DNA of 64,000 nucleotides from Chloroflexi bacterium GWB2_49_20 (GTDB lineage Bacteria; Chloroflexota; Anaerolineae; Anaerolineales; Villigracilaceae), in contig MGMF01000026.1 of NCBI GenBank assembly GCA_001796335.1, forward strand, positions 1 through 64,000. The letters run 5' to 3'. Below are positions 32,274 through 47,311 of the stretch, piece after piece. The notes under the pieces are model-generated. The model ran no database searches, had not been told where the DNA came from, and saw only the letters and a program-made list of their open reading frames with translations. The translations under genes were made by a program, and so were the position numbers. Every line of letters begins with the position of its first letter. The stretch's first letter is position 1.

Positions 32274-35021
32274 ATGACAAAAAAATGGGTCTATTTGTTT
32301 GATGATGTTTCCAGCGCGGAAAAAGCAGCTGGCAGTTGGGAAGGTGTTCGAGCCTTGTTGGGGGGTAAAGGCGCCGGCTTGGCAGATATGACGCGGGCTG
32401 GCGTACCCGTTCCACCAGGATTTACTGTAACCACGGAAGCTTGTAATGCATATTCTTCAAAAGGAAAATTTCCCGAAGGGATGTGGGAACAGGAGCTTGA
32501 GGCTCTTAAGGTGGTTGAAAAAAAAACCGGTAAAAGGTTCAATGATAATAGTAACCCCTTGTTAGTCTCCTGCCGGTCAGGTGCCAAATTTTCCATGCCA
32601 GGTATGATGGATACGGTATTAAACCTGGGTTTGACAGACCAGACTGCAGAAGCCATGATCAAACTGACAGAAAACCCTCGCTTTGTATATGATTCCTACC
32701 GCCGTTTGGTGGAAATGTTTGGTTCGGTTGTGCTTGGAATTTCTGATGAGGCTTTTGAGCGCCCAATGGCTGAATATAAAGCCAATAAAGGTTATACAAC
32801 TGATACCCAGATGAACGCAGATGATTGGAAAAGCCTGGTTGAGATATTCAAACAAGTCATAGAAAAAGAAAAAGGATTCGAATTTCCGCAGGATCCTTAC
32901 AAGCAACTTGAGCTGGCAACGGAAGCGGTTTTTAAATCTTGGAATGGAAAACGGGCAGTAGATTATCGACATGCCACCAATATTCCAGATGACCTGGGGA
33001 CAGCTGTGAACATTGTGACCATGGTTTTTGGAAACATGGGTGATGATTCAGGTACAGGTGTGGCATTCACCAGGGATCCATCAACAGGAGATAAAAAGAT
33101 GATGGGGGATTACCTGTTGAATGCACAAGGCGAAGATGTTGTGGCAGGCATCCGCAATGCAGATCCAATTGAGAAAATGCAGGGAACGATGCCGGAAGTA
33201 TATGCTCAATTCATGGAGATCACTTCCCGGTTGGAGAAGCATTATAAAGAGATGCAGGATGTCGAATTTACGATTGAGCGCGGAAAATTATGGATGCTGC
33301 AAACCCGAAACGGGAAACGCACGGCCAAATCAGCAGTAAAAATTGCCACGGATATGGCGAATGAAGGCTTGATCTCCCGGGAAGATGCAGTACTGCGTGT
33401 GTCCACCGACCAGGTTGATGCACTGCTGCACCCGCAATTTGACGAGAAAGTTAAAAAAGAGTTTCCGTTGTTTACAAAAGGTGTTAATGCCTCACCCGGG
33501 GCGGCTGTAGGACAGATCTACTTTGATGCAGACACTACTGAAAAAATGGGTAAAGAAGCAAAACAGGATGTCATCATGGTGCGCCCATTCACCAAACCAG
33601 ATGATGTACATGGAATGCTGGCCTCTCAGGGTATTTTAACCAGTGAAGGTGGTGCGACTTCACATGCTGCAGTAGTTGCGCGACAATTTGGCATCCCTTG
33701 TGTTGTTGGAGCTTCATCGGTAAAGATCGACCTGGATAAACGGCAGATGGAAGTGGATGGGCAGGTTGTGAAAGAGGGTGAATGGATCTCGGTGGATGGC
33801 ACCACCGGGCAAGTGTACCTGGGTCGCATCCCGACAGGTGCACCATCCCTTGAAGAGCAAACTGACCTGTTGACTTTGTTAACCTGGGCGGATGAGATCG
33901 CTGCCAGGGATGGTATTCGGCAGGCACCCACTGGTTGGCCAACCCGAGGCTTACAAGTATGGGCAAATGCAGATTATCCACAAGATGCACGCCGGGCACG
34001 TTCTTATGGCGCCAAGGGAATTGGTTTATGCCGAACCGAGCATATGTTCTTTGAACAGGAACGTTTGCCAATTGTACAGCACATGATCCTGTCTGAAACC
34101 AGCCAGGAACGTACCATCGCTTTGAATGAACTCCTCCCTTACCAACGCAAGGATTTTGACGGCCTGTTTGAAGCCATGGACGGGTACCCGGTGATCATCC
34201 GATTGATCGATCCACCCTTGCACGAATTCATGCCAGACGAAGAAAAACTGCTGGAAGAAGTGATCACCATGCGCGTTAAAGATGAGACACAAGGATTAGC
34301 AGAAAAAGAGAACCTGTTGGAATCCATTAAAGGGATGCATGAATCCAACCCGATGATGGGATTACGTGGTGTGCGTTTGAGCATTGTCATGCCCGAAATT
34401 GTAGAGATGCAGGTGCGGGCGATCTTTGAGGCAGCCGCAGATTGCACCTTGAGAAAAATTGTGGTTAAACCAGAAGTAATGATCCCTCTCACAGGAACGG
34501 TAAAGGAACTCGAATGGATCCAGCCCCGGTTGGAGCGGATTGCCAAAACCGTGATGGAAGAAAAGAAAGTACAGTTTACTTACAAATTTGGAACCATGAT
34601 CGAGATCCCGCGTGCATGTGTGACTGCGGCTGAAGTGGCCACGCGTGCAGAATTCTTCTCCTTTGGCACAAATGACCTTACCCAGATGACCTTCGGTTAT
34701 TCACGGGATGACGCTGAGCGGAATTTCCTTGTGACCTACGTGGAGCAAGGTATCCTGCCTGTAAACCCATTCCAGACTTTGGATCGGGACGGCGTTGGGC
34801 AACTGATGAAAATGGCAATAGCTGAAGGCCGCAAGACCCGTCCGGACCTGGAGGTGGGCATATGTGGAGAGCATGGAGGCGATCCTGATTCAATCGAATG
34901 GTGTCACCTGATTGGGAACCATTACGTATCATGTTCTCCGTTCCGTGTTCCGGTAGCCCGCCTGGCGGCTGCCCAAGTTGCCTTGAAACATAGCGGTAAA
35001 CAGACCGTCGAAGACAAATAA
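32274..35021 (+). CDS. ppdK: Pyruvate, phosphate dikinase
   Basis: PPDK interconverts pyruvate, ATP and phosphate with phosphoenolpyruvate, AMP and pyrophosphate. The 915-residue protein has the N-terminal ATP-grasp part (LGGKGAGLADMTRAGVPVPPG, MPGMMDTVLNLGLT, RRLVEMFG and QTRNGKRTAKSA), the phosphohistidine domain LTSEGGATSHAAVVAR near residue 455, and the PEP/pyruvate TIM barrel with GICGEHGGDP carrying the catalytic Cys. I chose ATG 32274, preceded by CGGAGG. An upstream ATG at 32226 adds 16 unlikely residues. It supports gluconeogenic or reversible PEP metabolism in an anaerobe. Confidence 0.95.
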   Translation: MTKKWVYLFDDVSSAEKAAGSWEGVRALLGGKGAGLADMTRAGVPVPPGFTVTTEACNAYSSKGKFPEGMWEQELEALKVVEKKTGKRFNDNSNPLLVSCRSGAKFSMPGMMDTVLNLGLTDQTAEAMIKLTENPRFVYDSYRRLVEMFGSVVLGISDEAFERPMAEYKANKGYTTDTQMNADDWKSLVEIFKQVIEKEKGFEFPQDPYKQLELATEAVFKSWNGKRAVDYRHATNIPDDLGTAVNIVTMVFGNMGDDSGTGVAFTRDPSTGDKKMMGDYLLNAQGEDVVAGIRNADPIEKMQGTMPEVYAQFMEITSRLEKHYKEMQDVEFTIERGKLWMLQTRNGKRTAKSAVKIATDMANEGLISREDAVLRVSTDQVDALLHPQFDEKVKKEFPLFTKGVNASPGAAVGQIYFDADTTEKMGKEAKQDVIMVRPFTKPDDVHGMLASQGILTSEGGATSHAAVVARQFGIPCVVGASSVKIDLDKRQMEVDGQVVKEGEWISVDGTTGQVYLGRIPTGAPSLEEQTDLLTLLTWADEIAARDGIRQAPTGWPTRGLQVWANADYPQDARRARSYGAKGIGLCRTEHMFFEQERLPIVQHMILSETSQERTIALNELLPYQRKDFDGLFEAMDGYPVIIRLIDPPLHEFMPDEEKLLEEVITMRVKDETQGLAEKENLLESIKGMHESNPMMGLRGVRLSIVMPEIVEMQVRAIFEAAADCTLRKIVVKPEVMIPLTGTVKELEWIQPRLERIAKTVMEEKKVQFTYKFGTMIEIPRACVTAAEVATRAEFFSFGTNDLTQMTFGYSRDDAERNFLVTYVEQGILPVNPFQTLDRDGVGQLMKMAIAEGRKTRPDLEVGICGEHGGDPDSIEWCHLIGNHYVSCSPFRVPVARLAAAQVALKHSGKQTVEDK

Positions 35022-35038
35022 GTACCTGTTGAAATTCA

Positions 35039-35072
35039 ATCGGGCGATACATCCAGAAGGTGTACCGCCCGA
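35039..35072 (+). terminator. Terminator-like stem after ppdK
   Basis: ATCGGGCGATACATCC (35039-35054) and GGTGTACCGCCCGAT (about 35059-35073) form an imperfect stem with strong GC base pairs at its foot. The following TAAGTTTAATGG has only a weak T-run. It sits between convergent ppdK and the GDPD gene and could serve both. Confidence 0.5.
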
Positions 35073-35103
35073 TAAGTTTAATGGATGTGTTATAGCAGTT
35101 GAA

Positions 35104-36003
35104 CTAATTGGAAGGATTTCGGCCGAGTAGTTTCATTAAAAGATCCGGGCGGTCGGTGATGATCCCATCCACTCCCATATCTATCATGTGCTTCATCTCT
35201 TGAGGATCATCGATCGTCCAAACATCCACGCGCAAGTTTCTTTCATGGGCAGCCCGGACAAAATGGGGAGTCATGATCGTGATCCCGCTGCTTTTTATTG
35301 GAACCTGGAATGTTTTGAAATTGGGGCTGTACCAGTGGCCGAGATAGGCAAAATTCATGAATACGAAGATCCGGGTTTCACTTTCATCAGCCGAGGTGGT
35401 AACTTCAGGGCATATCTTTCGAAATGCCGCGGTATTTTGGTGGGAGAATGATGCCGCGATGACTTTATCCTGCATATTATATTTCCGGATCAGATCACAG
35501 AAAGCTGTGTAAATTGGCGGATCTGTTTGTTTCATGTCAATGTTAAAGCGCATATCGGGGAAGGCTTTGAATACTTCTTCGAGAGATAAATAGGTGATCC
35601 CCTGGCCTCTAAATGGGAAGGTTGGACCATCTTTAGGAGACCAGTTATAGGCAGCATCGAGTGTTCGCAGTTCTACAAAGGTTAGATCGGCTACACGTCC
35701 AACCCCATTGCTTTTTCCATCCACCCTTTCATCATGGCTGACAACCAGGACACCATCCCTGGTCTGGCGGATATCGGTTTCAATGACATCCACGCCCATA
35801 TTAACGGCGTGTTGAAATGCATACATGGTGTTACCAGGCCAGATCCCGTCTCCACCCTGATGGGCAATCACCAGGGGGATTGGCAGGCTTGATAAATAGA
35901 AAGCGGAATCCCCAGCCTTTTTGGAAATAATAGCTGTGATGCCTAAGATCAGTACCAGGGCAGCCAGGATATAGGTGAATATTTTTCTGGATGGTTTTAT
36001 CAT
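35104..36003 (-). CDS. Membrane-anchored glycerophosphodiester phosphodiesterase family protein
   Basis: A 299-residue GDPD-fold protein with an N-terminal hydrophobic anchor (residues 8-27). The barrel core reads VIAHQGGDGIWPGNTMYAF, VDVIETDIRQTRDGVLVVSH (the ExD pair and second His), and NIDMKQ. The C-terminal GVDGIITDRPD is typical. The usual HR..PENT motif appears as HQ..PGNT, so the Arg and the Glu of the motif are changed. The metal ligands in ETD are kept. The expected role is hydrolysis of glycerophosphodiesters outside the membrane, although the altered motif leaves the substrate open. Confidence 0.85.
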   Translation of the reverse strand: MIKPSRKIFTYILAALVLILGITAIISKKAGDSAFYLSSLPIPLVIAHQGGDGIWPGNTMYAFQHAVNMGVDVIETDIRQTRDGVLVVSHDERVDGKSNGVGRVADLTFVELRTLDAAYNWSPKDGPTFPFRGQGITYLSLEEVFKAFPDMRFNIDMKQTDPPIYTAFCDLIRKYNMQDKVIAASFSHQNTAAFRKICPEVTTSADESETRIFVFMNFAYLGHWYSPNFKTFQVPIKSSGITIMTPHFVRAAHERNLRVDVWTIDDPQEMKHMIDMGVDGIITDRPDLLMKLLGRNPSN

Positions 36004-36048
36004 GAATAGTTTTCTCCTTTGGCAAGAGTTAATTATTTGGAAATAATA

Positions 36049-37074
36049 TCAAGAAACGAAGGGTTGCAGAAAGGCAACAACATTTTCACCCAGCTCGTCA
36101 ATTTTGTAGCCTCCTTCCAAAACAAGCGCTGTTGGCAGGTGGAGATCCGAAATCTTCTTGCCAAAGCTGGAAAAACCATTGCGGGTAACCCTAAAATCAC
36201 CCAGTGGATCACCGGTATAAGTATCAAACCCGGCAGAAACAATCAGGAAATCTGGTGAGAACTTGTCCACAAATTCGAGTGCCCTATCCAGTATCTGCTG
36301 GTAGAGATCGTCACCTGTTTGGTGAGGGAGGGGAAAATTATGGTGGAACCCTTTACCAGGTCCGGAGCCAGTTTCGTGGGCATAACCCGCATAAGACGGA
36401 TACTCCCAGGCAGGGTCTGCATGCAGTGAAATGGTCAGAACATCCGATCGTTCGTAAAATATTGCCTGTGTCCCATTGCCTGCATGGTAGTCAATATCCA
36501 AAATAGCGACTTTTCCAAGCCTGGATAACCATTGAGCCGCAATGGGTGCATTATTGAGATAGCAAAAGCCACCGCAGATCTCTGGCCCTGAATGGTGACC
36601 GGGAGGGCGGCTTATTGCAAAGGCTGGGCATTTGCGTGCGGCTGACACCTGTGCAGCAGAAAGTGCACATTGGGCCGAGGTTATGGCTGATATGTAGGTA
36701 TATTTGTTTACCGGTACATACATATCGGTCATGAAGAAACCATCCTGGTCAGGTATATTATCAAACGTGGTTGCTTTGGGGTTAAATCCCGGTGTATATG
36801 GAATAAAAGCCATATTTTCTTCATCGGAATAAACCTTCCAATCTTCGTAGGCATGCTTAAGATAATCCAGATATCTGGTGGTATGGATCTGTAAAATGGG
36901 TTCCATCCCAAAATCGTGGGGAGGCACGATCTCTGCCCAATCGGTAGTATTCAGGCAAGAAAGTATAGAATCAACCCGTTGGGGGACTTCAAATTGGGCA
37001 TCATAATCAGCGGGTCTTAATTTGGGTAGGCCAAAGGAATGACTTTTATGAACATCTGAATAAAAAATTTTCAT
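36049..37074 (-). CDS. Class II histone-deacetylase-family amidohydrolase
   Basis: The 341-residue protein is a zinc-dependent deacetylase of the HDAC/acetylpolyamine amidohydrolase superfamily. It shows AISRPPGHHSG with the His pair, GGFCYLNNAPIA, AILDIDYHAGNGTQ with the zinc ligands Asp and His, TISLHADP, LIVSAGFDTYTGDPLG with the second Asp, and LEGGY. In bacteria these enzymes remove acyl groups from polyamines or lysines. The substrate cannot be read. It lies 45 bases upstream of the GDPD gene on the same strand and is divergent from the BTAD regulator. Confidence 0.9.
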   Translation of the reverse strand: MKIFYSDVHKSHSFGLPKLRPADYDAQFEVPQRVDSILSCLNTTDWAEIVPPHDFGMEPILQIHTTRYLDYLKHAYEDWKVYSDEENMAFIPYTPGFNPKATTFDNIPDQDGFFMTDMYVPVNKYTYISAITSAQCALSAAQVSAARKCPAFAISRPPGHHSGPEICGGFCYLNNAPIAAQWLSRLGKVAILDIDYHAGNGTQAIFYERSDVLTISLHADPAWEYPSYAGYAHETGSGPGKGFHHNFPLPHQTGDDLYQQILDRALEFVDKFSPDFLIVSAGFDTYTGDPLGDFRVTRNGFSSFGKKISDLHLPTALVLEGGYKIDELGENVVAFLQPFVS

Positions 37075-37422
37075 TAATTAAGCCTGACTTGGACAAAGTA
37101 ACAGGAGTTTTGAAATATTATAGTGGCAAAATCAGAATTGATGGCAATATGCGACAGTTAAAAAGAATATCGGTTGAAGAACCGATATTCTGTGGGCAAA
37201 ATTAAGTTGGTTTCCTGAAGTAGTGTAAACTTCTTTCTGTAATTTCGCAAAAGAGTAGGTCAGGTGTTATTCTCACGGTGACCAAAAAATTATACCAATT
37301 GTTAAATTACAAAACGATCTAATGTTTTCAATTCTACGATAGAATGCCAAAATTTGTTCCACTTTTTCCCCAATTAGTGTAACATAAGGGAAATAATTTG
37401 TCCTAATTATATTGAAAAAACC
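37075..37422. other. 348-base divergent intergenic region
   Basis: It holds the promoters of the HDAC-like gene (reverse strand) and of the large regulator (forward strand). Besides the perfect hairpin at 37164-37191 I see AT-rich sequence with no coding frame. No clear -35/-10 pair with consensus spacing was found. Confidence 0.5.
37164..37191. promoter_or_regulatory. Perfect 12-bp inverted repeat in a divergent promoter region
   Basis: AGAATATCGGTT (37164-37175) and AACCGATATTCT (37180-37191) are perfect complements around a GAAG loop. No gene ends nearby, so a terminator role is unlikely unless for an unseen transcript. A protein-binding operator or attenuator is more likely. Confidence 0.55.
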
Positions 37423-40400
37423 ATGCTAATCGCTTTACCATCCATACGGCAACCACAACGACGCTCAAAATTATTGCGCAGATTGCGTCTATTGGATCTC
37501 ATTCACCAAAATGCGAGCCGAAAATTAACCTTTATTTGCGCTCCAGCAGGTTTTGGAAAGACGACTTTATTAATTGACTATGCAGATGACACTGATGTTA
37601 ATGTTTGTTGGTATCAGATCAAATATACCGATAATAATCTCTCCCTATTTTTCCAACATTTATTAGCTTCAATACGTGAGAAGCAGCCACACTTTGGAAC
37701 TGAACTTCAAAACATGTTATTCCAGGGATCGAATATGTCTCCACGGACTCTGGCAACTGAATTGGTCAATGAGTTTTCTCAAGGGATCCAGGACTTTACT
37801 GTATTAATCCTGGATGATTACCACCTGGTATGCGAAGAACTGGAAATTGTAACGTTTATTGAATACCTGTTGGAATATCTACCTGAGCATGTGCGCATTA
37901 TCATCGGTTCGAGAAGTGTTTATGGTATTCCAACCGCGTCATTGTATGTTAATGAAGAATTAGCAATCATAGCAGAGGATGATCTGCGCTTTCGGTCGAA
38001 TGAAGTTAAAGACTTGGCGCGACAACATTTCCAAATCAGACTCACCAACGAGCAGGCGGATGAAATTGTCCAACAGGCCGATGGTTGGATAATTGCCATC
38101 CTTCTGGCATTCCGGGACGGAACCCTATCTTCTGCCATTCCAAAATTAGCAGAAGCCCGTGAGAGAGTTTATGACTTCTTCGGGAAAGAAGTATATGCCT
38201 ACCTTCCTGACGATGTAAAATTTTTTCTACAAGTCACAGCAATCTGCGATGAATTTAACTCTGAACAGGCAAATTTCGTACTGGATGTCAGCACCTCTGA
38301 GACAACTATTCATTATCTCGAAGACCAGAATTTGTTTATTTCATCTTTCCAATCTACAAAAGGGGTCTATTATCAATACCACCAATTATTTAAAGATTTC
38401 CTCGAGTCGTGTTTTTTGGATTTACCTGGAAATAAGCAGGAAGAAATCCGGCGAAAAATCGCAAAGTGGTTTGAGGAGCATAATGAGTTTCAAAACGCCA
38501 TACGACACCTTCAAAAAGCCGGAGACCGGGATTATGTGGCGAGGATCATGGACGGTCAGGCTAAGGCCATGTATATATCTGGACAGGAAGCCATCCTGGA
38601 GGAGTGGTACAAAACATTACTCCAACCAACCGATATAAGACAACTGGCTCCCGATTTACTCCTGAACCTGGTCAAGGCTAGAATAAGCCAGGGAAAAATG
38701 GAAGGATGTCTCGAACTTTTATCTTTGGCTGAACCAGTATTTAAAGAACGTAATGAATTTGAAAACCTGGCAAATCTGCTTGTGATGAGGGGATTAACTT
38801 TTAGGTTTAATGGAGAATATAAAGAAGCGGTTTATTATGCCAATCTTGCAGAGAAATATGTAACAGAACATAACCTGGACCGGCATTATGCATACCAGGC
38901 CATACGCGTTAAAGGTCTGGGGTTATTCCACCAGGGATTTCCTGAACAATCTTTGGATGTACTTAATGAGGCAATGATTGGTTTCAAGGATTTACTTGCC
39001 AAAAACCCATCAGACAGACTCAAGCATGAAGTCATAATGATCCTGGCAGATATTGGATTCATTGCTTTGGGGCAAGGCGATGTTTTTAAAGCTCAAAGCA
39101 GTTTCAGGGAGGCGTTTGAACTCAGCTTAAATATGCGCGGTAACCAGGGAGATCTGGCAACCAGCGCCAATAACTTTGCTTACCTATCTTTCTTATTAGG
39201 AGATTTTCAAAAAGCCTGGCAGTATTACGAACAAGCCTTGCAGACAGCAGAACAAGTTGGTTGGGATCGTGTGATTGTTAATATTCTTAATAGTCAGTCC
39301 GAGTTACTGCTACAGGTTGATGAACTGGAATTGGCAGAGAATGCCCTTCAAAGAGCCATTAAAATTCTTGAGAAAATGCCTTCCGGTAAGAATTCAAGTA
39401 ATACCTTTCAGATAATGGCCGAACTCGAAACATTGAAAGGTAATTTCAACCAGGCAATGTATTTCTTGAGGGAAGCAGCTGCAGCAGGTTCAACCGATTT
39501 CAACAATCCCGAATATCAGATAAGAATGGCTGAAATATACCTGGCAATGGAACAACCCGAATTGGTATCTTCAACCCTTGGCAAAATCATGCACAAACTG
39601 GATGAAAATGCGAACCCAAGCCAGGCACGTTCCAAAGCTTACTATATGATGGCCATTGTAGAATTTCAATCGGGAAAAACGGGGGAAGATACCCAGCAGT
39701 ACCTTGCGAAAGCATTGGGATGTGCTGCTCAACTTGGGTACGATCAATTCTTGGTGATTTTAACCCGCCGATACCCTGATATGGCATTGACCGTTTCCAG
39801 AGCGTGGAAAAATAAACATCTGGCTACTATTATCGAGAGAATTAATAATTATCAGACAGGTTACCACCATCTGGTCACTAAAAAAGATATTACAGAGGAT
39901 ACACCAGCTCTCACCTTTCAAGTTCGGGCATTTGGAGATGGTGAGATCCGAAGTAATACAGAAATTATTCCAAATTCTGTCTGGCAATCTGCAGGAGCGC
40001 GGGCTTTATTCTATTTCATTCTTGATCGAGGAAAAGTAAAGCGCGATGATATTGTCGTTCAATTTTGGCCTGAATTCAGCAATGCAAAGGTAAACAGTAA
40101 TTTTCATGCCACTTTGTGGCGAGTGCGAAATGCGCTGGGCTCCAAACAAATCATAGCATTTGATGGCATATATTATTCGATCAATCAGGCGACCATATTC
40201 TATGATGTTTTGGAATTTGAAGAGCTCCTTGAAAAACTTAAGACTACAAATTTGTCTGAAATCGAACAACGAGAGTTGGGTTTGCAAGTGGTTGAGCTGT
40301 ACCATGGTGACTTTTTGGGTGATATTGATATGTCCTGGTTTGATAAGCGTCGAGCGGAATTAAGAGAAAAATATCGAAATCACCTGGAAAAAATGGCAGA

Positions 40401-40629
40401 AAAAGCGATGGATCGTAATTCCTACACAGATGCCAGGAATTATTATGAAAAGGCAATTGAATTGGACCCCTATCAGGATTATTTCCATTTGGGACTTGTG
40501 AAATGCCTTTTAAGAATGAAATCACCTGCGGCAGCCAAAGCACACTACCTGAACTACCTTCGTTTGTTGCATGATGAGCTTGGGATTGAGCCAATACCGG
40601 AGTTAAAGGACATCTTTGATAGGATCTAA
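37423..40629 (+). CDS. Large MalT/STAND-type ATPase with TPR repeats and C-terminal BTAD winged-helix regulator
   Basis: A 1068-residue transcriptional regulator. The Walker A APAGFGKTT (40-48) and LILDDYHLV (Walker B, near 130) define a STAND/MalT-like NTPase. A winged-helix and helical region follows, then about ten TPR-like repeats across 400-800. Last comes an OmpR-type winged helix (VVQFWPEFSNAKVNSNFHATLWRVRNALG) and a bacterial transcriptional activator domain with TPRs (LGLVKCLLRMKSPAAAKAHY, DELGIEPIPEL). In SARP regulators the winged helix and BTAD are N-terminal; here they are at the C-terminus. Such proteins switch on genes when a ligand binds the TPR region and ATP binds. It may control the small-peptide genes just downstream. 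Confidence 0.85.
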   Translation: MLIALPSIRQPQRRSKLLRRLRLLDLIHQNASRKLTFICAPAGFGKTTLLIDYADDTDVNVCWYQIKYTDNNLSLFFQHLLASIREKQPHFGTELQNMLFQGSNMSPRTLATELVNEFSQGIQDFTVLILDDYHLVCEELEIVTFIEYLLEYLPEHVRIIIGSRSVYGIPTASLYVNEELAIIAEDDLRFRSNEVKDLARQHFQIRLTNEQADEIVQQADGWIIAILLAFRDGTLSSAIPKLAEARERVYDFFGKEVYAYLPDDVKFFLQVTAICDEFNSEQANFVLDVSTSETTIHYLEDQNLFISSFQSTKGVYYQYHQLFKDFLESCFLDLPGNKQEEIRRKIAKWFEEHNEFQNAIRHLQKAGDRDYVARIMDGQAKAMYISGQEAILEEWYKTLLQPTDIRQLAPDLLLNLVKARISQGKMEGCLELLSLAEPVFKERNEFENLANLLVMRGLTFRFNGEYKEAVYYANLAEKYVTEHNLDRHYAYQAIRVKGLGLFHQGFPEQSLDVLNEAMIGFKDLLAKNPSDRLKHEVIMILADIGFIALGQGDVFKAQSSFREAFELSLNMRGNQGDLATSANNFAYLSFLLGDFQKAWQYYEQALQTAEQVGWDRVIVNILNSQSELLLQVDELELAENALQRAIKILEKMPSGKNSSNTFQIMAELETLKGNFNQAMYFLREAAAAGSTDFNNPEYQIRMAEIYLAMEQPELVSSTLGKIMHKLDENANPSQARSKAYYMMAIVEFQSGKTGEDTQQYLAKALGCAAQLGYDQFLVILTRRYPDMALTVSRAWKNKHLATIIERINNYQTGYHHLVTKKDITEDTPALTFQVRAFGDGEIRSNTEIIPNSVWQSAGARALFYFILDRGKVKRDDIVVQFWPEFSNAKVNSNFHATLWRVRNALGSKQIIAFDGIYYSINQATIFYDVLEFEELLEKLKTTNLSEIEQRELGLQVVELYHGDFLGDIDMSWFDKRRAELREKYRNHLEKMAEKAMDRNSYTDARNYYEKAIELDPYQDYFHLGLVKCLLRMKSPAAAKAHYLNYLRLLHDELGIEPIPELKDIFDRI

Positions 40630-40656
40630 ATTAAAAAACTGAAATCAAGAATGATC

Positions 40657-40701
40657 GTCCCGGAACCTGGAAGGACCCCTCCAAGTACCGGGACTTTTTT
40701 T
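40657..40701 (+). terminator. Intrinsic terminator of the regulator gene
   Basis: GTCCCGG (40657-40663) pairs with CCGGGAC (40688-40694); the inner segment AACCTGGAAGG/CCTCCAAGTA continues the stem with gaps. It is followed by seven T residues at 40695-40701. Confidence 0.85.
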
Positions 40702-40767
40702 GTTCATACTTTCGTTCATAGTGGTTGTTTAGAATTACCCTAAACTAATAGATATCTGGAGGAAGAT

Positions 40768-40926
40768 ATGATCAAAAATATTATGAATAATGTTGTTACT
40801 TTTTCTTCAACTGTGAACCTTGGGATGGTCGTCAGAATTCTTGTTCTTTTGGCCCTGGTATTTGCAGCCCTGGCTCATCCAGGATCGGTTTTGGCTGAAC
40901 CTTCCTGGGGCGGATCTGTGGGGTAG
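40768..40926 (+). CDS. 52-residue exported micropeptide precursor (candidate signal peptide/pheromone)
   Basis: The ATG at 40768 has an ideal ribosome site (TGGAGGAAG, six bases upstream). The 52-codon frame encodes a basic and polar start, a hydrophobic core RILVLLALVFAALAHPG, and SVLA, a signal-peptidase I-type site, leaving a predicted nine-residue product EPSWGGSVG. It is too short for a folded protein. The TAG lies at the left arm of a small stem TAGGCA/TGCCTA (40924-40940). It sits between the TPR-containing regulator and an Os1348-like gene. It could be an exported peptide signal, a leader peptide or a non-functional remnant. No known family is claimed. Confidence 0.5.
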   Translation: MIKNIMNNVVTFSSTVNLGMVVRILVLLALVFAALAHPGSVLAEPSWGGSVG

Positions 40927-40949
40927 GCACTAAATGCCTATCGAATATT

Positions 40950-41162
40950 ATGACAAAATTAGAGATTAACGCGCTTGCGACTCGGGCGCTTACTGACAGG
41001 AATTTTGAAGCAGCCATACTCAATGGCCACCGCTACGAGCGTTTACAGGAATTCCAGCTTCCTGTAGGTGTAGTGAATGCAATCATGCAGATCAAGGGAG
41101 AAAATCTTCAGCAATTTATTTACCAGCTGAATGATCTGGTTAATTCTCCTGTAGCCCTGTAG
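40950..41162 (+). CDS. Os1348/NHLP-like small leader-type protein
   Basis: A 70-residue protein, INALATRALTDRNFEAAILN then ERLQEFQLPVGVVNAIMQIK, then a helix ending ENLQQFIYQLNDLV. The pattern (xLATRALTDxxF...LPxxxVxAI...L) resembles the Os1348 family, related to nitrile-hydratase-like leader peptides (NHLP) and LigA, which often precede or accompany peptide modification genes. The ATG at 40950 has no strong ribosome site, so it may be coupled to the upstream micropeptide. No modification enzyme is next to it. The resemblance is by pattern and not tested. Confidence 0.6.
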   Translation: MTKLEINALATRALTDRNFEAAILNGHRYERLQEFQLPVGVVNAIMQIKGENLQQFIYQLNDLVNSPVAL

Positions 41163-41355
41163 TCTATCCCAGTTATTAGGCGATGACCAGAAATTAGTTG
41201 GTATAGCCATTATGGGAGAGCGATGTATCATCGTTCTCCCAATACTTGATTTTCGATTTGGGAATTAGGCAGCTCGTAATCTGGCGAGTTTGCTTTATTT
41301 AAGAATTAGGTAAAAAACGTGTGAGCATAGATCTTATGAGGACGGTACTCTGAGA

Positions 41356-42558
41356 ATGGAAAATTTGCCTGTAAGTTTGGAAACTTTGAAAACAACTGGA
41401 GATAATTTGTCAATAAGCCCTGACCAGTTTAAACGCATGCAGGCACTTGCCAATATAGATAGAGCCATTATATCGACTCTGGATATTGATGTCATCACTG
41501 ACATCGTTTTCGATCAAATTACCCAACAACTTGGAGCCGAAATCTGCGTTTTATTTCTGCAGGATCCAATCACCTCCCAATTTGTATGTAAACGAACAAA
41601 GGGATTATCTGGATTAAATGGAAATATGGGTATGACTTTTAACCCCCCATTTGTTTTTGCCCAGAAAGCAATTACCTCAGGCGGTATGTTGTTCATAGAT
41701 GATTTGAGTTTGGCACGTTCAGAAAAAGAAATCGATCTTCCATTTCCTTATAAATATATCCATTTTTATTCAGCAGTTCCTTTGGTAAATTCAAGTAAAA
41801 CCATCGGAGTTTTGGAGGTATGTTCTACGAAATCCATTCTTCCTGATTGGGAATGGAAAAATTTCCTTGGTATGATTGCCAGACAGGCGACCATTGCAAT
41901 TGAGCACCTGAGTTTAATTGAGAATATCCAACACTTGAATAAAGAACTTGTATATGCCTATGAAAGTACCCTAATGGGTTGGGCAAAGGCTTTGGAGTAT
42001 AAAGATCGGGAAACCAAAGGCCATAGTGAAAGGGTTACAGAGATGGCCATCCGGTTGGGGAAAACCATGAATCTGAATGAAGATGAATTGTTACAATTAC
42101 GAAGAGGAGCGATCCTGCACGATATTGGAAAAATGTGTATCCCTGAAAAAATCCTTTTTAAGACAGAGCCACTGACGGAAGAAGAATGGGAGATCATGAA
42201 ACAACATCCCGTTTTTGCACAAGAATTTTTGGCGGATATCCAATTTATTCAGCCAGCTTTAAATATTCCATTATTTCACCATGAAAGATGGGATGGGTCG
42301 GGATATCCTTATGGATTAAAAGGTAAACAGATCCCTCTGGCTGTGCGAATATTCATGGTAGTGGATGTATGGGATGCCCTGACAAGCTTGCGACCATACC
42401 GGGAGGCCTGGAGCAATCTGGAAGCGCGTATATATTTTGAACAAAATTCCGGCATTCAGTTCGACCCGAATGTTGTAACAAAATTTCTGGAATTGCTGGC
42501 AACTCTTGATCATGATCCATTACATGCTCATGAAATGAACAGATCTAATAGTCATTAA
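41356..42558 (+). CDS. GAF and HD-GYP cyclic-di-GMP phosphodiesterase
   Basis: This 400-residue signalling protein has an N-terminal GAF sensor domain (about residues 30-190) and a C-terminal HD-GYP domain (about 210-385): HSERVTEMAIRLGK, LHDIGKMCIPEKIL, HHERWDGSGYPYGLKG and FMVVDVWDALTS. The HD, HDIGK and GYP residues that bind the metals are present, so it should hydrolyse cyclic di-GMP in the cytoplasm. The ligand of the GAF domain is unknown. It is preceded by 190 bases with no gene and followed by a terminator. Confidence 0.92.
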   Translation: MENLPVSLETLKTTGDNLSISPDQFKRMQALANIDRAIISTLDIDVITDIVFDQITQQLGAEICVLFLQDPITSQFVCKRTKGLSGLNGNMGMTFNPPFVFAQKAITSGGMLFIDDLSLARSEKEIDLPFPYKYIHFYSAVPLVNSSKTIGVLEVCSTKSILPDWEWKNFLGMIARQATIAIEHLSLIENIQHLNKELVYAYESTLMGWAKALEYKDRETKGHSERVTEMAIRLGKTMNLNEDELLQLRRGAILHDIGKMCIPEKILFKTEPLTEEEWEIMKQHPVFAQEFLADIQFIQPALNIPLFHHERWDGSGYPYGLKGKQIPLAVRIFMVVDVWDALTSLRPYREAWSNLEARIYFEQNSGIQFDPNVVTKFLELLATLDHDPLHAHEMNRSNSH

Positions 42559-42636
42559 ATAATATTCCGGTGGTGTGTGGTGAGTTGAACGATTCCTAAC
42601 CTTCATTGTTGTCACAGGGAATCCACCTGAAAAAGA

Positions 42637-42666
42637 GCTCTGATCATGATCAGGGTTCTTTTTTGT
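42637..42666 (+). terminator. Intrinsic terminator after the HD-GYP gene
   Basis: The self-complementary CTCTGATC (42638-42645) and GATCAGGG (42648-42655, one G-T or mismatch pair) form a short stem around an AT loop, with the surrounding GA/TC extending it. TTCTTTTTTG follows. It separates the HD-GYP gene from the methyltransferase region. Confidence 0.65.
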
Positions 42667-42825
42667 TGTGCGCCCGAATTTAAACAACTTGCTATAGGAG
42701 ATAATCTTATGGCTATCCTATTTATTCTCCATTCAGGTGAGTTTGAACCAGGGAAGAGCGTTGGTTTGAAAATGCGATTCTAGGAATATCTTCCTGGATT
42801 TGTACAAATCCCTTTTCACAAATTT

Positions 42826-42845
42826 ATATATTATGTATAATATAT
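42826..42845. promoter_or_regulatory. Palindromic operator candidate overlapping the gntR start
   Basis: ATATATTAT (42826-42834) and ATAATATAT (42837-42845) are perfect inverted repeats separated by GT. The element contains a TATAAT box (42836-42841) and covers the first gntR start codon (42844). GntR/FCD regulators bind short palindromes of this size, so this is a strong candidate for autoregulation. A low-complexity AT palindrome by chance cannot be excluded. Confidence 0.5.
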
Positions 42846-43575
42846 GTTAATTATGATCAGTGAAACCAATCTTGATTTTGAACAGGTTCAGAGGAAACCA
42901 TTGAAGGAAGAGATCTTTGAAATCCTTCATAAACGCATCATAGCGGGTAAATATGCACCGGGAGATTGGTTGCGGCAGGAGGAAATATCGTCACAATTGG
43001 GTGTCAGTCAGACGCCTGTTCGTGAAGCCCTGGATCTGCTAGTGTCGACTGGTCTGGCGGAACGTGAACCTTTCAGAGGCGTGCGGGTGATGCAATTATC
43101 TGCGGATGAGATAGCAGAATCATATGGGATGCGTTTATTCCTGGAGTGTTCTGCGGCAGCAACCGCGGCAACCAGGATAACAGATGAAGATGTGAAAAAA
43201 CTTATAAGAATTATCGATCAAACAAAAAATTTAATGACTCTTAATGATATGTCCACACAAAGGCATTTAAATCGCGAATTTCATTTGGCTGTTGTGGACG
43301 CCAGCGGTAATTCCTTATTGACCAAGTTATATGGCATAGTGATCAATTCATTTCCGGATTGGATGTTGTATGAATATATGTTCCGCCATCCGGAATTATT
43401 GGAAGAAAGCCTGGTTCAGGAATATCATGAACACATGGCCATAGTGGAGGCCCTGGCGGATCATGATAAAGCACGCTCAGCTAAAGTCACACTCATACAC
43501 ATCCAGAACCTGGGAAAGGAATTAGTGAGTTACCTTGGTATCCCGGCAGAGTTGTTGAAAGCAAAGAGAATATAG
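42844..43575 (+). CDS. GntR-family transcriptional regulator with FCD domain
   Basis: A 243-residue FadR-subfamily regulator. The winged helix lies at residues 15-90 (KPLKEEIFEILHKRIIAG, then SSQLGVSQTPVREALDLLVSTGL). The FCD ligand domain follows at about 95-230 with the metal-binding pattern of Asp/His (HLNREFHLAVVDASGN and EYHEHMAIVEA). Ligands are usually small carboxylates or amino-acid derivatives. It is the first gene of the methyltransferase cluster, 58 bases before the corrinoid protein gene. Two ATG codons, 42844 and 42853, could start it. The first lies inside a palindrome with a TATAAT box, so the second, or a leaderless mRNA, is plausible. Confidence 0.88.
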   Translation: MLIMISETNLDFEQVQRKPLKEEIFEILHKRIIAGKYAPGDWLRQEEISSQLGVSQTPVREALDLLVSTGLAEREPFRGVRVMQLSADEIAESYGMRLFLECSAAATAATRITDEDVKKLIRIIDQTKNLMTLNDMSTQRHLNREFHLAVVDASGNSLLTKLYGIVINSFPDWMLYEYMFRHPELLEESLVQEYHEHMAIVEALADHDKARSAKVTLIHIQNLGKELVSYLGIPAELLKAKRI

Positions 43576-43633
43576 ATCTCAATGAAATAAATGGTGTTTT
43601 AGGTTTTTATATCAATTTAGCATAGGAGAAAAA

Positions 43634-44281
43634 ATGTCAGCAGAACTTTTTAAAAAAATGGCTCAAAGCATTATTGATGGGGACTCTGATGTATCAGTGG
43701 AGCTTGCCAATCAAGCCGTTGCCGCGAACATCGATCCAATCCAGGCGATTACCGAAGGCTTCGTTGTGGGTGTCAATACGGTGGGTGAAGCATTTGCAAA
43801 TGGCGACGCCTTCCTGCCGGAGTTGGTAATGGCTGGTGAGGCCATGAAGGCCGCGGTCACCGCATTGGAGCCCGAGATGGCAAAACGTGGCACCCAACGA
43901 AAGATGCTTGGCAAGGTCGTGTTGGCAACCGTGGAAGGTGATATCCACGAAATTGGGAAATCACTGGTGGGAACCATGTTGTCAGCCTCTGGATTCCAGG
44001 TCTTTGATATGGGTGTGGATGTAGCTACAACCAAGATCATTGCCAAGGTTAAAGAAGTGGACGCTGATATCGTTGCAATGAGCGCCCTCTTAACTACAAC
44101 CATGGTAAAGCAAAAGGAAGTGATTGATGTGCTCGACAAAGAAGGTCTGCGCCGTAAAGTTAAAGTCATGGTTGGGGGAGCCCCGGTCACCCGGGATTGG
44201 GTTCAAAGAATTGAAGCAGATGGGTATTCTGAAGATGCAATTGGGGCAGTTAATGTTGCCAAGCAATTGATGGGTATTTAA
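43634..44281 (+). CDS. Methyltransferase corrinoid protein (MttC/MtbC family)
   Basis: The 215-residue protein carries the cobalamin for methyl transfer. Residues 1-85 form the helical cap (FKKMAQSIIDGDSDVSVELA, ANGDAFLPELVMAGEAMKAA). Residues 92-215 are the Rossmann B12-binding domain with DIHEIG, in which His105 is the lower cobalt ligand, the SALLTTTM segment near 150, and VMVGGAPVT near 178. Cobalt shuttles between methyl-Co(III) and Co(I). It is the only such protein in the cluster, so all four methyltransferases probably share it. Its start ATG follows AGGAGAAAAA, and the first MttB gene follows after 18 bases. Confidence 0.95.
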   Translation: MSAELFKKMAQSIIDGDSDVSVELANQAVAANIDPIQAITEGFVVGVNTVGEAFANGDAFLPELVMAGEAMKAAVTALEPEMAKRGTQRKMLGKVVLATVEGDIHEIGKSLVGTMLSASGFQVFDMGVDVATTKIIAKVKEVDADIVAMSALLTTTMVKQKEVIDVLDKEGLRRKVKVMVGGAPVTRDWVQRIEADGYSEDAIGAVNVAKQLMGI

Positions 44282-44299
44282 CTACTTAAGAGGCAACCT

Positions 44300-45748
44300 G
44301 TGTCCAAAAATATTAAATCCATAACAAACCCCAAGGTTCATCTGGATGTTCTGACCCCCGCAGAGGTACAGAAAATACATGATGCGACCCTGAATATTAT
44401 AGAAAATGTTGGTGTAAGATTTCCTTCAATCCGGTCTTTGGATATATGGGAAGCTAACGGGGCAACCGTTGACCGTGAGAGCATGATCGTTAAAGCAAAA
44501 CCCCATTTGATCGAAGCTGCCCTGAAAAAAGCACCACCCAAATATAATTTATGCGCACGAGATCCTCAGCAGGACCTTCCCCTGGATGGTAATCATGTTT
44601 TTGTAGGGACGGATGGCTGCGGTGTCGAAATTATTGACATCCATACCGGTGAGAGGCGCACGTCATGCTTACAAGATGTTGGCGAAGTTGCACGCGTTGC
44701 TGATGCCATGGAAGAAGTTGGATTCCATTGGGTGGCGTTATCTGCCCAGGATACACCCGTGGAAACACGCGGGTTGCATGAGATCAAAGCCATCTGGGAA
44801 AATTCCACCAAGCATCTTCAAACAGAGAGTATTTATAACGAGCATGAGGCACGTGTGGCAATTGAGATGGCGGCCCTGATCGCTGGTGGAAAAGAGGCAT
44901 TACGCAAGCGCCCAGTGCTTTCTCTCATGCAATGTACTGCCCCACCTCTTGGTCATGATGGGGGCAGCCTGGATGCTGCCCTGTTGGCGGCAGAGGCCGG
45001 GATCCCGACCGGTTTTATGACCATGTCCGCAGCTCTGACCACCGGGCCTGCCACCATGGCGGGTGTTTTAGCAGTAGGTAATGCTGAGGTGATCTCTGCC
45101 ACTGCTTTGCTGCAGCTGGCTTTCCCAGGGACTCCTGTATTCTATGCAGCGGCACAGACAGCATCCGATTTACGAAACGGTGCCTATACGGGAGGCGGTC
45201 CGGAAGACTTCCTGTTTGGTGCAGCCACCAATGTGTTGGCCGATTTTTATGATATTCCGTTATCCATGGGTTCCTTTGCCACCGGGGCTAAAGAACCAAA
45301 CTGGCAGGCAGGAATTGAGAACAGCCTGTCGACTTTCATGGCATGTGTGTCCATGTCTGATATGCTGCTGGGACTGGGCTTTTTACATGGCAGCCGGATT
45401 TGGTCTTATGCACAGATGATGATGGATGCCGAGATCTTTTCCATTGTTCATAAAACCATGCAGGGAATTGTGGTGGACGATGAAACCCTGGCTTTGGATA
45501 CGATCGCAGCAGTTGGCCCAGGTGGAAACTTTCTTTCACAAAAACATACTTTGAAACATATGCGCGATGTATTCTTGCCGCAATTCATGGATCGCAGACC
45601 CTACAATGTCTGGGAAGAGAAGAAGGATGATGCCCGAGATTGGGCGCTTGCCAAGGCTCGAAATATTCTGGCCACGCACCAACCAGATCCATTGGATGCA
45701 AAACTATCCGCGGAACTGGCAAAAATGATCGTCGCAGAGGAAAAGTGA
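44300..45748 (+). CDS. Non-pyrrolysine MttB-superfamily methyltransferase, paralogue 1
   Basis: A 482-residue member of the trimethylamine methyltransferase (MttB, COG5598) family. It shows TPAEVQKIHDATLNIIENVG near the start, GATVDRESMIVKAKPHLIEA, and the barrel segments MSAALTTGPATMAGVLAVGNAE and GPGGNFLSQKHTLKHMRDVF near the C-terminus. No TAG codon occurs in frame and the gene ends in TGA, so pyrrolysine is not used. Related non-Pyl enzymes demethylate glycine betaine, proline betaine, carnitine or gamma-butyrobetaine. The start is GTG 44300 after AAGAGG. It lies 18 bases after the corrinoid protein and eight bases before paralogue 2. The substrate is not deducible. Confidence 0.92.
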   Translation: MSKNIKSITNPKVHLDVLTPAEVQKIHDATLNIIENVGVRFPSIRSLDIWEANGATVDRESMIVKAKPHLIEAALKKAPPKYNLCARDPQQDLPLDGNHVFVGTDGCGVEIIDIHTGERRTSCLQDVGEVARVADAMEEVGFHWVALSAQDTPVETRGLHEIKAIWENSTKHLQTESIYNEHEARVAIEMAALIAGGKEALRKRPVLSLMQCTAPPLGHDGGSLDAALLAAEAGIPTGFMTMSAALTTGPATMAGVLAVGNAEVISATALLQLAFPGTPVFYAAAQTASDLRNGAYTGGGPEDFLFGAATNVLADFYDIPLSMGSFATGAKEPNWQAGIENSLSTFMACVSMSDMLLGLGFLHGSRIWSYAQMMMDAEIFSIVHKTMQGIVVDDETLALDTIAAVGPGGNFLSQKHTLKHMRDVFLPQFMDRRPYNVWEEKKDDARDWALAKARNILATHQPDPLDAKLSAELAKMIVAEEK

Positions 45749-45755
45749 GCCGAAT

Positions 45756-47210
45756 ATGCAACCCAAACTAGAATTGCTCTCCCAGGTTCTGATCGACCGT
45801 GTCCTCGACGAAGCCTTTCAGCTTATGCTTAAACCCGGCATCAAAGTGCAATCGGGTGAAGCTCGAACCCTGCTCGCCGAAGCTGGCGCGCTGGTGGATG
45901 CGAACAGTGATGTGGTCAGGATCCCTGAAATGGTTGTGCGCAAAGCCCTTGAAACAACTCCGCATACGTTCAACCTTTATGACCGGAATGGAAATCCCAC
46001 TGTATTTTACGGGGGGGATGCCGTACATTTTGACCCAGGTTCGTCAGGAGTCCATGTCCTGGATCCGGATACTCTGGAACACAAGCCATCTTATGCCGCT
46101 GACCTGATGAGGCTCGTTAAAGTAACCGAAATGCTGCCGCAATATGATGCTCAATCCACGGCGGTTGTTTGTAATGAAATTCCCAAGGCGGTGGGAGATC
46201 TTTACCGGCTTTATGTAGTGCTCCTATTCTCGTCCAAACCCATCATAACGGGGTCGTTCTCGATCCAAACATTACAATCCATGATCGATATGCTAGGGAT
46301 TTTTGCCGGCAGCAGCTCAGCCCTGGCAGAAAAACCCCAGGCAGTTTTTGATGTTTGCCCTTCGCCTCCATTGATCTGGAGCGAGTTTGGTTCTCAAAAC
46401 CTGATCGATTTAGCCCGGGCAGGTGTCCCGGCTCAGATGGTGTCCATGCCCCTGGCTGGTGCAGCGGCTCCCGTTACCCTGCTCGGATCGGTGACCCAGC
46501 ATGCAGCAGAATGCTTAAGTGGAATCACCATTCATCAGCTTGCCAAGGCAGGCTCACCTATTGTTTGGGGTGGAGCACCGGCGATCTTTGATATGCGCAA
46601 AGGCACGACCCCGATGGGTGCAATTGAAACTGCCATGATTGATGCATCCTATGCACAGGTAGGCAAATCTTTGGGATTGCCAACCCATACTTATTTATGT
46701 GCCAGTGACAGCAAGCTTGTTGATGCCCAGGCTGGAATGGAAAGCGGAATTTCCGCTGTTATTGGAGCCCTGGCAGGCATTAACATGATCTCAGGCGCAG
46801 GCATGCTCGATTTTCTGGCATGCCAGAGTGCTGAAAAACTGGTGGTGGACGCAGAGGGGATCGGCATGGCAAAGCGATTGCTAGCGGGTATGCAGGTTCA
46901 AACAGAAAATCTGGCAACAGCCTTGTTTGAAGGAATTAACTTTAAAGGTGATTTTTTGAAACAAAAGATCACACGTGAACTATTCGCTAAGGAACAATAT
47001 TTACCTTCAGCGGTTATCGATCGGGATTCTATCCGTGGATGGCAGGCGGGAGGCTCAAAAGATACCTTTGCCCGGGCAAAAGATCGTACGACTCAGCTTT
47101 TGAAGGAATATCAACAACCAGCCATGGCTGAAGATCAGAAAAAAGAACTGCAAACAATGGTCACAAAACTTGCCAGGGATGCTGGCATGGACCGTCTCCC
47201 GGACCTCTAA
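45756..47210 (+). CDS. Non-pyrrolysine MttB-superfamily methyltransferase, paralogue 2
   Basis: A 484-residue MttB-superfamily protein, clearly distinct from its neighbours. Its start LIDRVLDEAFQLMLKPGIKV departs from the usual HxATLxILxxVG consensus, so the N-terminal region has diverged most. It keeps the GSSGVHVLDPDT region, MPLAGAAAPVTLLGSVTQHAAE and AGINMISGAGMLDF. The C-terminal IDRDSIRGWQAGGSKDTFAR replaces the GGNFLSQKHT stretch of the others. The frame has no TAG and ends in TAA. It follows paralogue 1 by eight bases and precedes a terminator. It probably handles a different amine, or a subunit role is possible. Confidence 0.88.
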   Translation: MQPKLELLSQVLIDRVLDEAFQLMLKPGIKVQSGEARTLLAEAGALVDANSDVVRIPEMVVRKALETTPHTFNLYDRNGNPTVFYGGDAVHFDPGSSGVHVLDPDTLEHKPSYAADLMRLVKVTEMLPQYDAQSTAVVCNEIPKAVGDLYRLYVVLLFSSKPIITGSFSIQTLQSMIDMLGIFAGSSSALAEKPQAVFDVCPSPPLIWSEFGSQNLIDLARAGVPAQMVSMPLAGAAAPVTLLGSVTQHAAECLSGITIHQLAKAGSPIVWGGAPAIFDMRKGTTPMGAIETAMIDASYAQVGKSLGLPTHTYLCASDSKLVDAQAGMESGISAVIGALAGINMISGAGMLDFLACQSAEKLVVDAEGIGMAKRLLAGMQVQTENLATALFEGINFKGDFLKQKITRELFAKEQYLPSAVIDRDSIRGWQAGGSKDTFARAKDRTTQLLKEYQQPAMAEDQKKELQTMVTKLARDAGMDRLPDL

Positions 47211-47254
47211 TATGAAATGATTGACAGACTGATCTTTGATCCAATTTAGAACAC

Positions 47255-47311
47255 AAAAGGTGCTGTCCAGGAAAATTCAATTTCTTCTTATTTTTTGGGC
47301 AGCCCCTTTTT
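47255..47311 (+). terminator. Terminator between MttB paralogue 2 and the S9 peptidase
   Basis: AAAAGGTGCTGTCCA (47255-47269) pairs with TGGGCAGCCCCTTTT (47296-47310) with one mismatch and one wobble across a 26-base AT-rich loop. The 3' arm ends in a T-run (47307-47311). Confidence 0.7.

Follow-up and report, generated by a model that had tools for sequence, protein, structure and literature searches.

The window examined here, a stretch of 64,000 nucleotides, holds an operon of a conserved type, in which the gene of a STAND/TPR/SARP regulator is followed by a promoter of SARP type with direct repeats and then by genes for a micropeptide, in some loci a membrane protein (DUF5317), an Os1348/NHLP-like protein and an HD-GYP protein. 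Judged from sequence comparison, the same place, promoter and tail design recur above chance in all 97 regulator loci that carry an Os1348-like gene, the window being one of them. We consider an autoregulated peptide-signalling operon the most likely reading of the locus and give it about an even chance; the recurrent arrangement points to an undescribed bacterial peptide system, which may provide a cell-to-cell signal. Among the matches listed in the open-licence PMC literature, nothing was found on the operon itself. The features of the window are as follows.

37423..40629, + strand: regulator of 1068 aa, composed of a STAND ATPase (MalT-like), a TPR superhelix and a SARP part (winged helix and BTAD), from domain and structure matches and an AlphaFold2 model
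40657..40701, + strand: terminator-like hairpin GTCCCGG...CCGGGAC with a run of seven T after it, 3' of the regulator gene, from sequence reading
40702..40721, + strand: GTTCATAC-TTTC-GTTCATAG, a direct repeat with a period of 12 bp to which the regulator is proposed to bind, from sequence comparison
40730..40735, + strand: TAGAAT, proposed -10 element, 8 bp past the second 8-mer and 9 bp past the heptamer GTTCATA, from sequence and the SARP 8-bp rule (PMC10936776)
40758..40763, + strand: GGAGGA ribosome-binding site, 4 bp before the ATG, from sequence reading
40768..40926, + strand: micropeptide gene, 52 aa, with a long N-region, a hydrophobic helix, the c-region HPGSVLA and the tail EPSWGGSVG, from the ORF and relatives (L166 is alike)
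40897..40923, + strand: predicted end product of nine residues (44-52), EPSWGGSVG, given a V-L-A site like those of signal peptidase I
40950..41162, + strand: Os1348/NHLP-like small protein, 70 aa, from pairwise and profile comparison
41356..42558, + strand: 400-aa GAF-HD_5 protein of HD-GYP type, whose gene usually ends the operon, from a domain match and relatives

A sequence-only reading of this DNA had picked out the regulator, the 52-codon frame and the 70-residue frame, which lie as it gave them, and had called the ribosome site of the 52-codon frame excellent. The TPR and STAND/BTAD character that it ascribed to the 1068-residue protein is confirmed by matches to TPR_12, TPR_MalT and BTAD (3e-15), by residues 7-400, which match 8bob, a solved fragment of MalT (E 8e-27), and by residues 865-1068, which match the AfsR SARP domain in 8hvr (E 2e-5). 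The AlphaFold2 model (mean pLDDT 85, pTM 0.57) places TPR-type helices at about 336-808 and a winged helix at about 831-927, followed by the BTAD part. The protein resembles the MalT/LAL regulators in its N-terminal ATPase and TPR part (8bob; the NCBIfam model PRK04841 scores 239 bits, below its cut-off of 537), but it has a SARP in place of a LuxR-type HTH and a peptide gene alongside.

The same reading had proposed a peptide-signalling circuit with a regulator of the RRNPP group. The circuit remains a good reading, with the micropeptide conserved beside the regulators, while the membership does not hold, because size, architecture and DNA-binding domain are all different: RRNPP receptors are usually 250-500 aa according to PMC10075063, and the window regulator, at two to four times the usual size, carries a STAND ATPase plus, at its C-terminus, a SARP DNA-binding domain. 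The operon also comes from another phylum and has extra conserved Os-like, DUF5317 and HD-GYP-type genes. The likeness to the RRNPP(A) systems of Bacillota (Rap-Phr, PlcR-PapR, Rgg-SHP, AimR-AimP) lies in the layout, a TPR protein beside a small precursor whose C-terminus is the would-be mature peptide, and multi-copy propeptides occur there too, as described in PMC9765709 and PMC11343458. Secretion in the RRNPP systems goes by Sec or PptAB; the window operon offers a site between VLA and E, and L166 one between AFA and G, both predicted by eye.

We compared 152 distinct regulator loci, of which 97 (window counted in) carry the Os1348-like gene, and in every one of the 97 a micropeptide frame precedes it. 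These frames were obtained by rule (79), from ORF calling (14) or by eye (2), and all were checked; the micropeptides of L201 and L214, which fall outside the GG rule, were checked separately and complete the 97. On the regulator tree the window groups with L166, L167 and L168, and its nearest relatives have regulators 37-40% identical to its own; these were the best that a second scan gave, a first scan of genome contigs with the regulator alone having found no close relative. Since no relative of the window above 40% regulator identity was found, the coding evidence is that of the relatives' frames. The two gene copies of L166 differ by 23 synonymous and 2 non-synonymous changes, pooled pN/pS over 20 pairs of relatives' frames is 0.22, and two further tandem pairs, weaker, have the same sign (L081, pS 0.46 and pN 0.11; L057, pS 0.20 and pN 0.06); silent differences are also seen between tail units of identical protein sequence. 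By these substitution patterns the relatives' micropeptide frames evolve as coding sequence. Lack of conservation, or substitution ratios typical of non-coding DNA, had been named as what would refute the idea; the relatives do not refute it, since they have a peptide of the same design beside their regulators, evolving as coding. Scans of five micropeptide members gave no significant Pfam or NCBIfam match.

Concerning the promoter, the window has two GTTCATA copies 12 bp apart and then TAGAAT, and by eye L166-L168 share this half-site. The window box taken alone is only suggestive, because such a box appears in 16 of 5000 shuffles of the first 160 bp 3' of the regulator and because, in the 3.37 Mb genome at no more than one mismatch, the repeat pattern has 1 match and the reversed control pattern also 1. 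What convinces us, still at the level of sequence, is the recurrence of the box across loci. In family f1, 50 of the 63 loci with an Os1348-like gene (window included) have a period-12 repeat with TANNNT 8 bp downstream, against a shuffle expectation of 0.12, and each other period from 8 to 16 is seen in 0 or 1 loci. In this count the 8-bp gap is not distinct: the register of the 8-mer can slide where repeats are longer, and gaps of 7 to 12 bp give 39 to 55 of the 63 loci. Once the register is fixed, TANNNT stands exactly 8 bp on in 46 of the 48 boxes of CCTG type that the 97 loci contain. A looser box rule gave 74 boxes, with a period of 12 in 68, as in the window, and of 11 in 6. With at most one mismatch GNANCCTGTTTTGNANCCTG is matched in 73 of 152 family genomes, against 7 hits for the reversed control pattern. 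Half-site and recognition helix also appear, by eye and with no formal test, to shift jointly between clades, the pairs being SNFHATLWRVR with GTTCATA, KLRFKNEIYRLRRA with GAAGCCTG and KKRFKNEIYRLRRA with GCATCCTG.

This promoter brings the operon close to AfsR-AfsS of Streptomyces, where SARP, STAND/NOD and TPR parts are likewise combined, a small-protein gene is the target, and the 3' one of the direct repeats lies 8 bp from the -10 (PMC10936776), a spacing that is seen here by sequence alone. The order of parts is reversed in the window regulator (MalT-like NOD N-terminal, SARP C-terminal), and the period is 12, in some loci 11, against 11 or 22 in the AfsR type. As AfsR activates afsS (63 aa) through direct repeats overlapping the -35 (PMC10936776, PMC6988585), the micropeptide could be an intracellular small regulatory protein that relays the SARP signal, with no pheromone involved. 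We find this unlikely: a hydrophobic helix is absent from 11 of the 95 precursors scored, as this reading would have it, and by eye also from L214, a point that counts against the signalling reading too, export of these forms being uncertain, but 84 of the 95 do have the helix. Moreover, AfsS is described as acting at promoters (PMC6988585), whereas the tails here are tiny, short ends to precursors with a signal-peptide-like helix, and their tandem repeats suggest that units are released.

By sequence comparison, what lineages retain and multiply of the precursor is its short, Gly-rich C-terminal tail. In the window it would follow a signal peptide cleaved between VLA and EPSWGGSVG, as we infer from the sequence; L166 has a similar precursor, signal-peptide-like and ending in the nine residues GPIPGGAGS after AFA, whereas in the other close relatives of the window the hydrophobic helix is lacking and a short Gly-rich peptide stands in tandem four times. 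Some relatives repeat the short peptide three to five times per gene, multi-copy tails being found in 9 of 97 loci with no fewer than 5 changes along the tree; L214, from the isolate Thermanaerothrix daxensis GNS-1, has four PQASGDISR units. The precursors of L077 and L102 have lost the hydrophobic helix and kept the tail; the DUF5317 copy of L077 has an internal deletion, and in L102 none was detected. That the product stays uncleaved, as a small single-pass membrane protein whose outside tail serves as a sensor or as an anchor for the Os-like protein, would fit the helix of most precursors, often preceded by Lys/Arg; however, helix-less and multi-copy forms exist, and signal-peptidase-like sites adjoin the tail, by eye, in the window, L142, L143, L146 and L166, which makes this reading very unlikely.

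DUF5317 is present in 62 of 95 loci (63 of 97 in the full set; the L077 copy, which lacks the NGG stretch, was scored absent in the tree test). A GAP motif occurs in the precursors of 61 of the 62 loci with DUF5317 against 4 of the 33 without it (Fisher 5e-19, a value that ignores kinship), and the outcome of an independent-pairs test is modest (6 to 0; median p 0.031). Among the four exceptions L142 is a chance match, and L085, L144 and L209 have no DUF5317 between the peptide and the Os gene. This link, the close spacing of micropeptide and DUF5317 in many loci and the resemblance of GAP to RAPP-type arrest sequences (as described in PMC12992588) could be accounted for by a leader or translation-arrest peptide tuning translation of the next gene, DUF5317 or Os-like. 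Such a peptide has very slight probability in our view, since the tail past GAP is conserved, and multiplied in lineages lacking DUF5317, neither of which arrest needs, and the window has neither GAP nor DUF5317.

DUF5317 has two invariant Asp (150 and 168 in L211), and its likeness to the signal peptidase LspA, which has a catalytic Asp pair, is no more than a lead. Compared with 5dir_A, which we take to be an LspA entry, it gave a VIA Z of 5.8 over 93 residues (3.0 A, 19%), ranking fifth behind unrelated helical bundles at 6.8-6.0, and hhalign gave a probability of 3.6% and p 0.012 with only the second Asp covered (reversed controls 0.55 and 0.66). Peptidase_A8 was not among the families listed for it, a Foldseek search of its fold against the PDB gave no match at E <0.001, and no paper on it was found in the open-licence PMC literature, where Os1348 has one.

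The 70-residue protein had been called Os1348-like, and this relation can be considered settled, because a profile of eight class-wide relatives, window excluded, matches it with E 4.9e-13 among 295 window ORFs, where the family-f1 profile alone had failed (E 3 among 994 ORFs). Its pairwise scores exceed all but 3 of 1000 shuffles, and a profile from the Os-like alignment (window one of 14 rows) matches 6lk7 with E 8e-7; the E-value for the window from an HMM seeded with its own protein was set aside. The window protein has no NCBIfam hit, and for NF038399 four relatives reach 27-36 bits, under the curated cut-off of 40. In contrast to the Os1348/NHLP clan, many members here have little sequence past the NHLP-like domain, and another peptide gene precedes them. 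As a guess, it may be that the 70-residue protein is a peptide chaperone or carrier.

This tie to the NHLP clan also serves the main rival reading, an effector peptide, RiPP- or bacteriocin-like, that is made under SARP control and has in the Os1348/NHLP-like protein a leader-like partner or carrier. Multi-copy cores also occur in RiPPs, and the multi-copy tails resemble that habit. SARP regulators are described as activating antibiotic clusters (PMC10936776), and loss of Os1348 as reducing antibiotic activity in Pseudomonas sp. Os17 (PMC7726476). We regard an effector as possible, though rather improbable. The modifying enzyme and exporter found beside the precursor in a RiPP cluster were not seen among the twelve window proteins typed (32226-49127), nor in relatives, where the genes typed downstream were those for DUF5317, Os-like and HD-GYP-type proteins. 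The last nine residues of the 97 peptides are 36% Gly, <1% Cys and about 3% aromatic, and the usual last gene, the HD gene found in 67 of the 71 Os1348-positive loci with at least 2.6 kb downstream, encodes a signalling protein.

Under the preferred signalling reading, the regulator, once switched on, would bind the 12-bp direct repeats and recruit RNA polymerase. The window precursor would be cut by signal peptidase I after VLA, those of DUF5317-bearing relatives at the GAP motif, probably with DUF5317 help, and tandem-copy precursors by proteases between units, releasing a peptide of about nine residues (EPSWGGSVG in the window). Intracellular or re-imported, this peptide would act on the regulator's TPR/STAND part, closing a feedback loop, and the HD-GYP protein may couple the output to cyclic-di-GMP. 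In favour of this reading we count the AfsR precedent, where the SARP domain is held back by NOD and TPR (PMC10936776); against it counts that no importer or exporter gene was seen in the operon unit. Covariation of the tail with the TPR part gave no TPR-specific signal (partial r 0.06, p 0.13 in 94 loci; -0.02, p 0.60 in 46), that with the SARP part being slightly better (0.10, p 0.05; 0.12, p 0.10). A more specific proposal, which we advance tentatively and well short of even confidence, is a peptide-signalling system found class-wide in Chloroflexota, where short Gly-rich peptides released from the product of the regulator's own target gene would have the STAND/TPR/SARP regulator as their receptor and DUF5317 would be a dedicated intramembrane aspartyl peptidase recognising GAP in hydrophobic precursors.

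If the tails are signals, peptide communication would extend outside the phyla known to us for such systems, with a receptor of STAND type having the architecture of MalT and AfsR. Each of dozens of species would have its own defined candidate ligand, and receptor-ligand tests would therefore be direct; DUF5317 and the Os1348-like proteins would gain their first functional leads. Should the peptides prove to be effectors, annotation would still profit from a micropeptide family that is conserved class-wide.

The regulator, the micropeptide gene and the 70-residue gene, re-read from the sequence, lie where the sequence-only reading had placed them:

37423-40629, + strand, regulator of 1068 residues
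40768-40926, + strand, micropeptide gene, 52 residues
40950-41162, + strand, Os1348/NHLP-like gene, 70 residues
41356-42558, GAF-HD_5 gene, downstream of the 70-residue gene

The regulator is built from a MalT-like STAND ATPase (residues 7-400 match MalT 8bob, E 8e-27), a TPR superhelix and a C-terminal SARP unit of winged helix and BTAD (residues 865-1068 match AfsR 8hvr, E 2e-5). Pfam matches are BTAD and TPR, and the STAND, TPR and SARP parts are visible in the predicted model (mean pLDDT 85, pTM 0.57). The micropeptide gene carries GGAGGA 4 bp ahead of its ATG, and its product consists of a hydrophobic stretch followed by the end HPGSVLA/EPSWGGSVG. Elsewhere in this genome only a weak micropeptide match (E 0.23, inside a 651-residue frame) and no second copy of the 70-residue gene were found; two more BTAD matches lie at C23:153200-153556 and C1:186454-186633, the second below the cut-off. 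Downstream, at 43634-49127, stands what is probably a separate cluster of methylamine or betaine type, with genes for a B12-binding protein, an S9 prolyl oligopeptidase and two MTTB-family methyltransferases.

Searches found related regulators in 121 of 152 same-family genomes (E 1e-20 or better) and in 102 of 396 from the class (E 1e-70 or better). A subset of all these matches was taken, 80 named loci (the best 80 of 530) were added from a second contig scan of genomes, and 152 distinct loci were left after dropping duplicates and truncated genes. An Os1348-like gene lies downstream in 97 of them, window counted (Os+ loci), and the micropeptide proved to be conserved beside related regulators, a small frame lying between the two genes in 97/97. 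Of these frames 79 were identified by rule; 14 from an earlier frame set and 2 read by eye were then checked, as were those of loci L201 and L214, which fall outside the GG rule. Applied to the 44 loci that lack the Os gene, the same rule gave a frame in 6, two of which, those of L137 and L190, seem to be genuine relatives. The Os+ peptides have 22-66 residues (median 47), glycine makes up 36% of their last nine residues and GG occurs within the last 14 in 83 of 97. An HD gene comes next in 67 of the 71 Os+ loci having at least 2.6 kb of downstream sequence.

At L190, where no Os gene was detected, a lipoprotein-like precursor (..CTIAC-SPEGNGGPGGF) lies 135-141 bp behind the regulator, a parallel to pheromones derived from lipoprotein signal sequences. 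Elsewhere in the phylum (loci L281-L293), Os1348-like proteins of about 72 residues end in ..KSAGRGFF or similar; in several loci a long upstream frame immediately precedes the gene and no clear micropeptide separates the two, and there the Os1348-like protein itself may carry the tail, the short C-terminal end of the precursor.

Tandem tail copies occur in 9/97 loci (L067, L074, L097, L105, L115, L138, L167, L168 and L214), with units such as SPSDGGVGGRR, PADGCTGGRR, PPTYGGC and PQASGDISRRS, and this state changed at least 5 times on the tree. Units that are identical as protein carry silent differences, 4-6 of 30 bases in L167 for instance, so selection keeps the peptide. These silently differing units are the best evidence that the short tail is the working product. 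Two micropeptide genes stand in tandem within one operon at L057, L081, L086 and L166; between those of L166, 23 changes are synonymous and 2 non-synonymous (pS 0.60, pN 0.02). Over 20 chosen pairs of related micropeptides the pooled pS was 0.41 and pN 0.09, a coding-like ratio of 0.22 (single pairs up to 0.46) that applies to the relatives, as no close relative of the window's own frame was found among the genomes scanned.

In the regulator tree the window groups with L166 (Chloroflexi bacterium SI074_bin144) and next with L167 (Anaerolineales TGS_CHL7) and L168 (Anaerolineales DTUCFX4), with FastTree local support of 100 and a warning from the program that two long branches, the window and L166, join here. 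Both L166 peptides end in FPGFAFA/GPIPGGAGS, a tail of nine residues like that of the window; L167 and L168 carry NQPLGGGIGT and HPVGGGVGTGP, each four times, and have no hydrophobic helix. By eye, GTTCATA or GCTCATA stands in a 12-bp repeat at all three, and an Os-like gene and an HD_5 gene come next.

A GAP motif precedes the tail in 61/62 loci with a DUF5317 gene versus 4/33 without, one of these four (L142) being a chance match; independent pairs on the tree gave 6 to 0 (median p 0.031). Loci L077 and L102 keep the tail after loss of the hydrophobic helix; DUF5317 lacks its NGG stretch at L077 and was not detected at L102. It is likely that DUF5317 takes part in precursor processing. That it is a peptidase is a lead: it has two invariant Asp residues, and its confident model (pLDDT 91) weakly resembles signal peptidase II, at a level that helical bundles reach by chance (Z 5.8), with hhalign giving p 0.012 (reversed controls 0.55-0.66) and probability 3.6%. 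Invariant N-x-G-x-M-P, K, D and S-x-G-D positions were also seen (L211:10458-11060 and others). The window lacks both GAP and DUF5317, and a putative signal-peptidase-I-like site stands in their stead.

Ahead of the micropeptide gene, 50 of the 63 Os+ loci from family f1, window counted, have a direct repeat of period 12 followed after 8 bp by TANNNT, against 0.12 expected from shuffling (maximum 1); other periods gave 0 or 1 loci. CCTG-type boxes in fixed register have TANNNT exactly 8 bp on in 46/48, and any other gap in at most 6. A looser rule finds the box in 74/97 loci, with period 12 in 68 and 11 in 6. According to PMC10936776, SARP promoters have repeats spaced by 11 or 22 bp, the 3' one standing 8 bp from the -10 element; the gap is the same here, but the period is mostly 12. 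The window box reads GTTCATAC-TTTC-GTTCATAG, 8 bp, TAGAAT, and its repeat (at most 1 mismatch) occurs once in the genome, as does a reversed control pattern. Half-site and recognition helix co-vary between clades, judged by eye with kinship not taken out, a pattern that fits each regulator binding its own peptide gene's promoter.

Some GAAGCCTGTTTTGAAGCCTG-type boxes lie away from known regulators (L117-L136, 20 sites fetched). One, L130, is another regulator-peptide locus; TANNNT lies 8 bp on in 8 of the remaining 19, and some precede genes for large secreted proteins (SpvB-domain, DUF11, DUF5122, Amidase_6, PLD-like) or HU-like proteins. These orphan boxes possibly represent a wider regulon.

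In AfsR the activating part is the SARP domain, which the NOD and TPR domains hold in check (PMC10936776); in the favoured reading, the peptide would be the ligand setting this restraint. Tail-regulator covariation was negative, the SARP part scoring no worse than the TPR part, and no transport gene was seen in the unit; both count against this reading. The peptide is possibly an effector, RiPP- or bacteriocin-like, as the relation of the 70-residue protein to Os1348 (PMC7726476) suggests, although none of the neighbour genes typed proved to encode a modifying enzyme. No description of this operon was found among the open-licence PMC papers listed by the searches. The operon is like RRNPP systems in its layout and like AfsR-AfsS in its regulator and promoter; by the features tested it belongs to neither.
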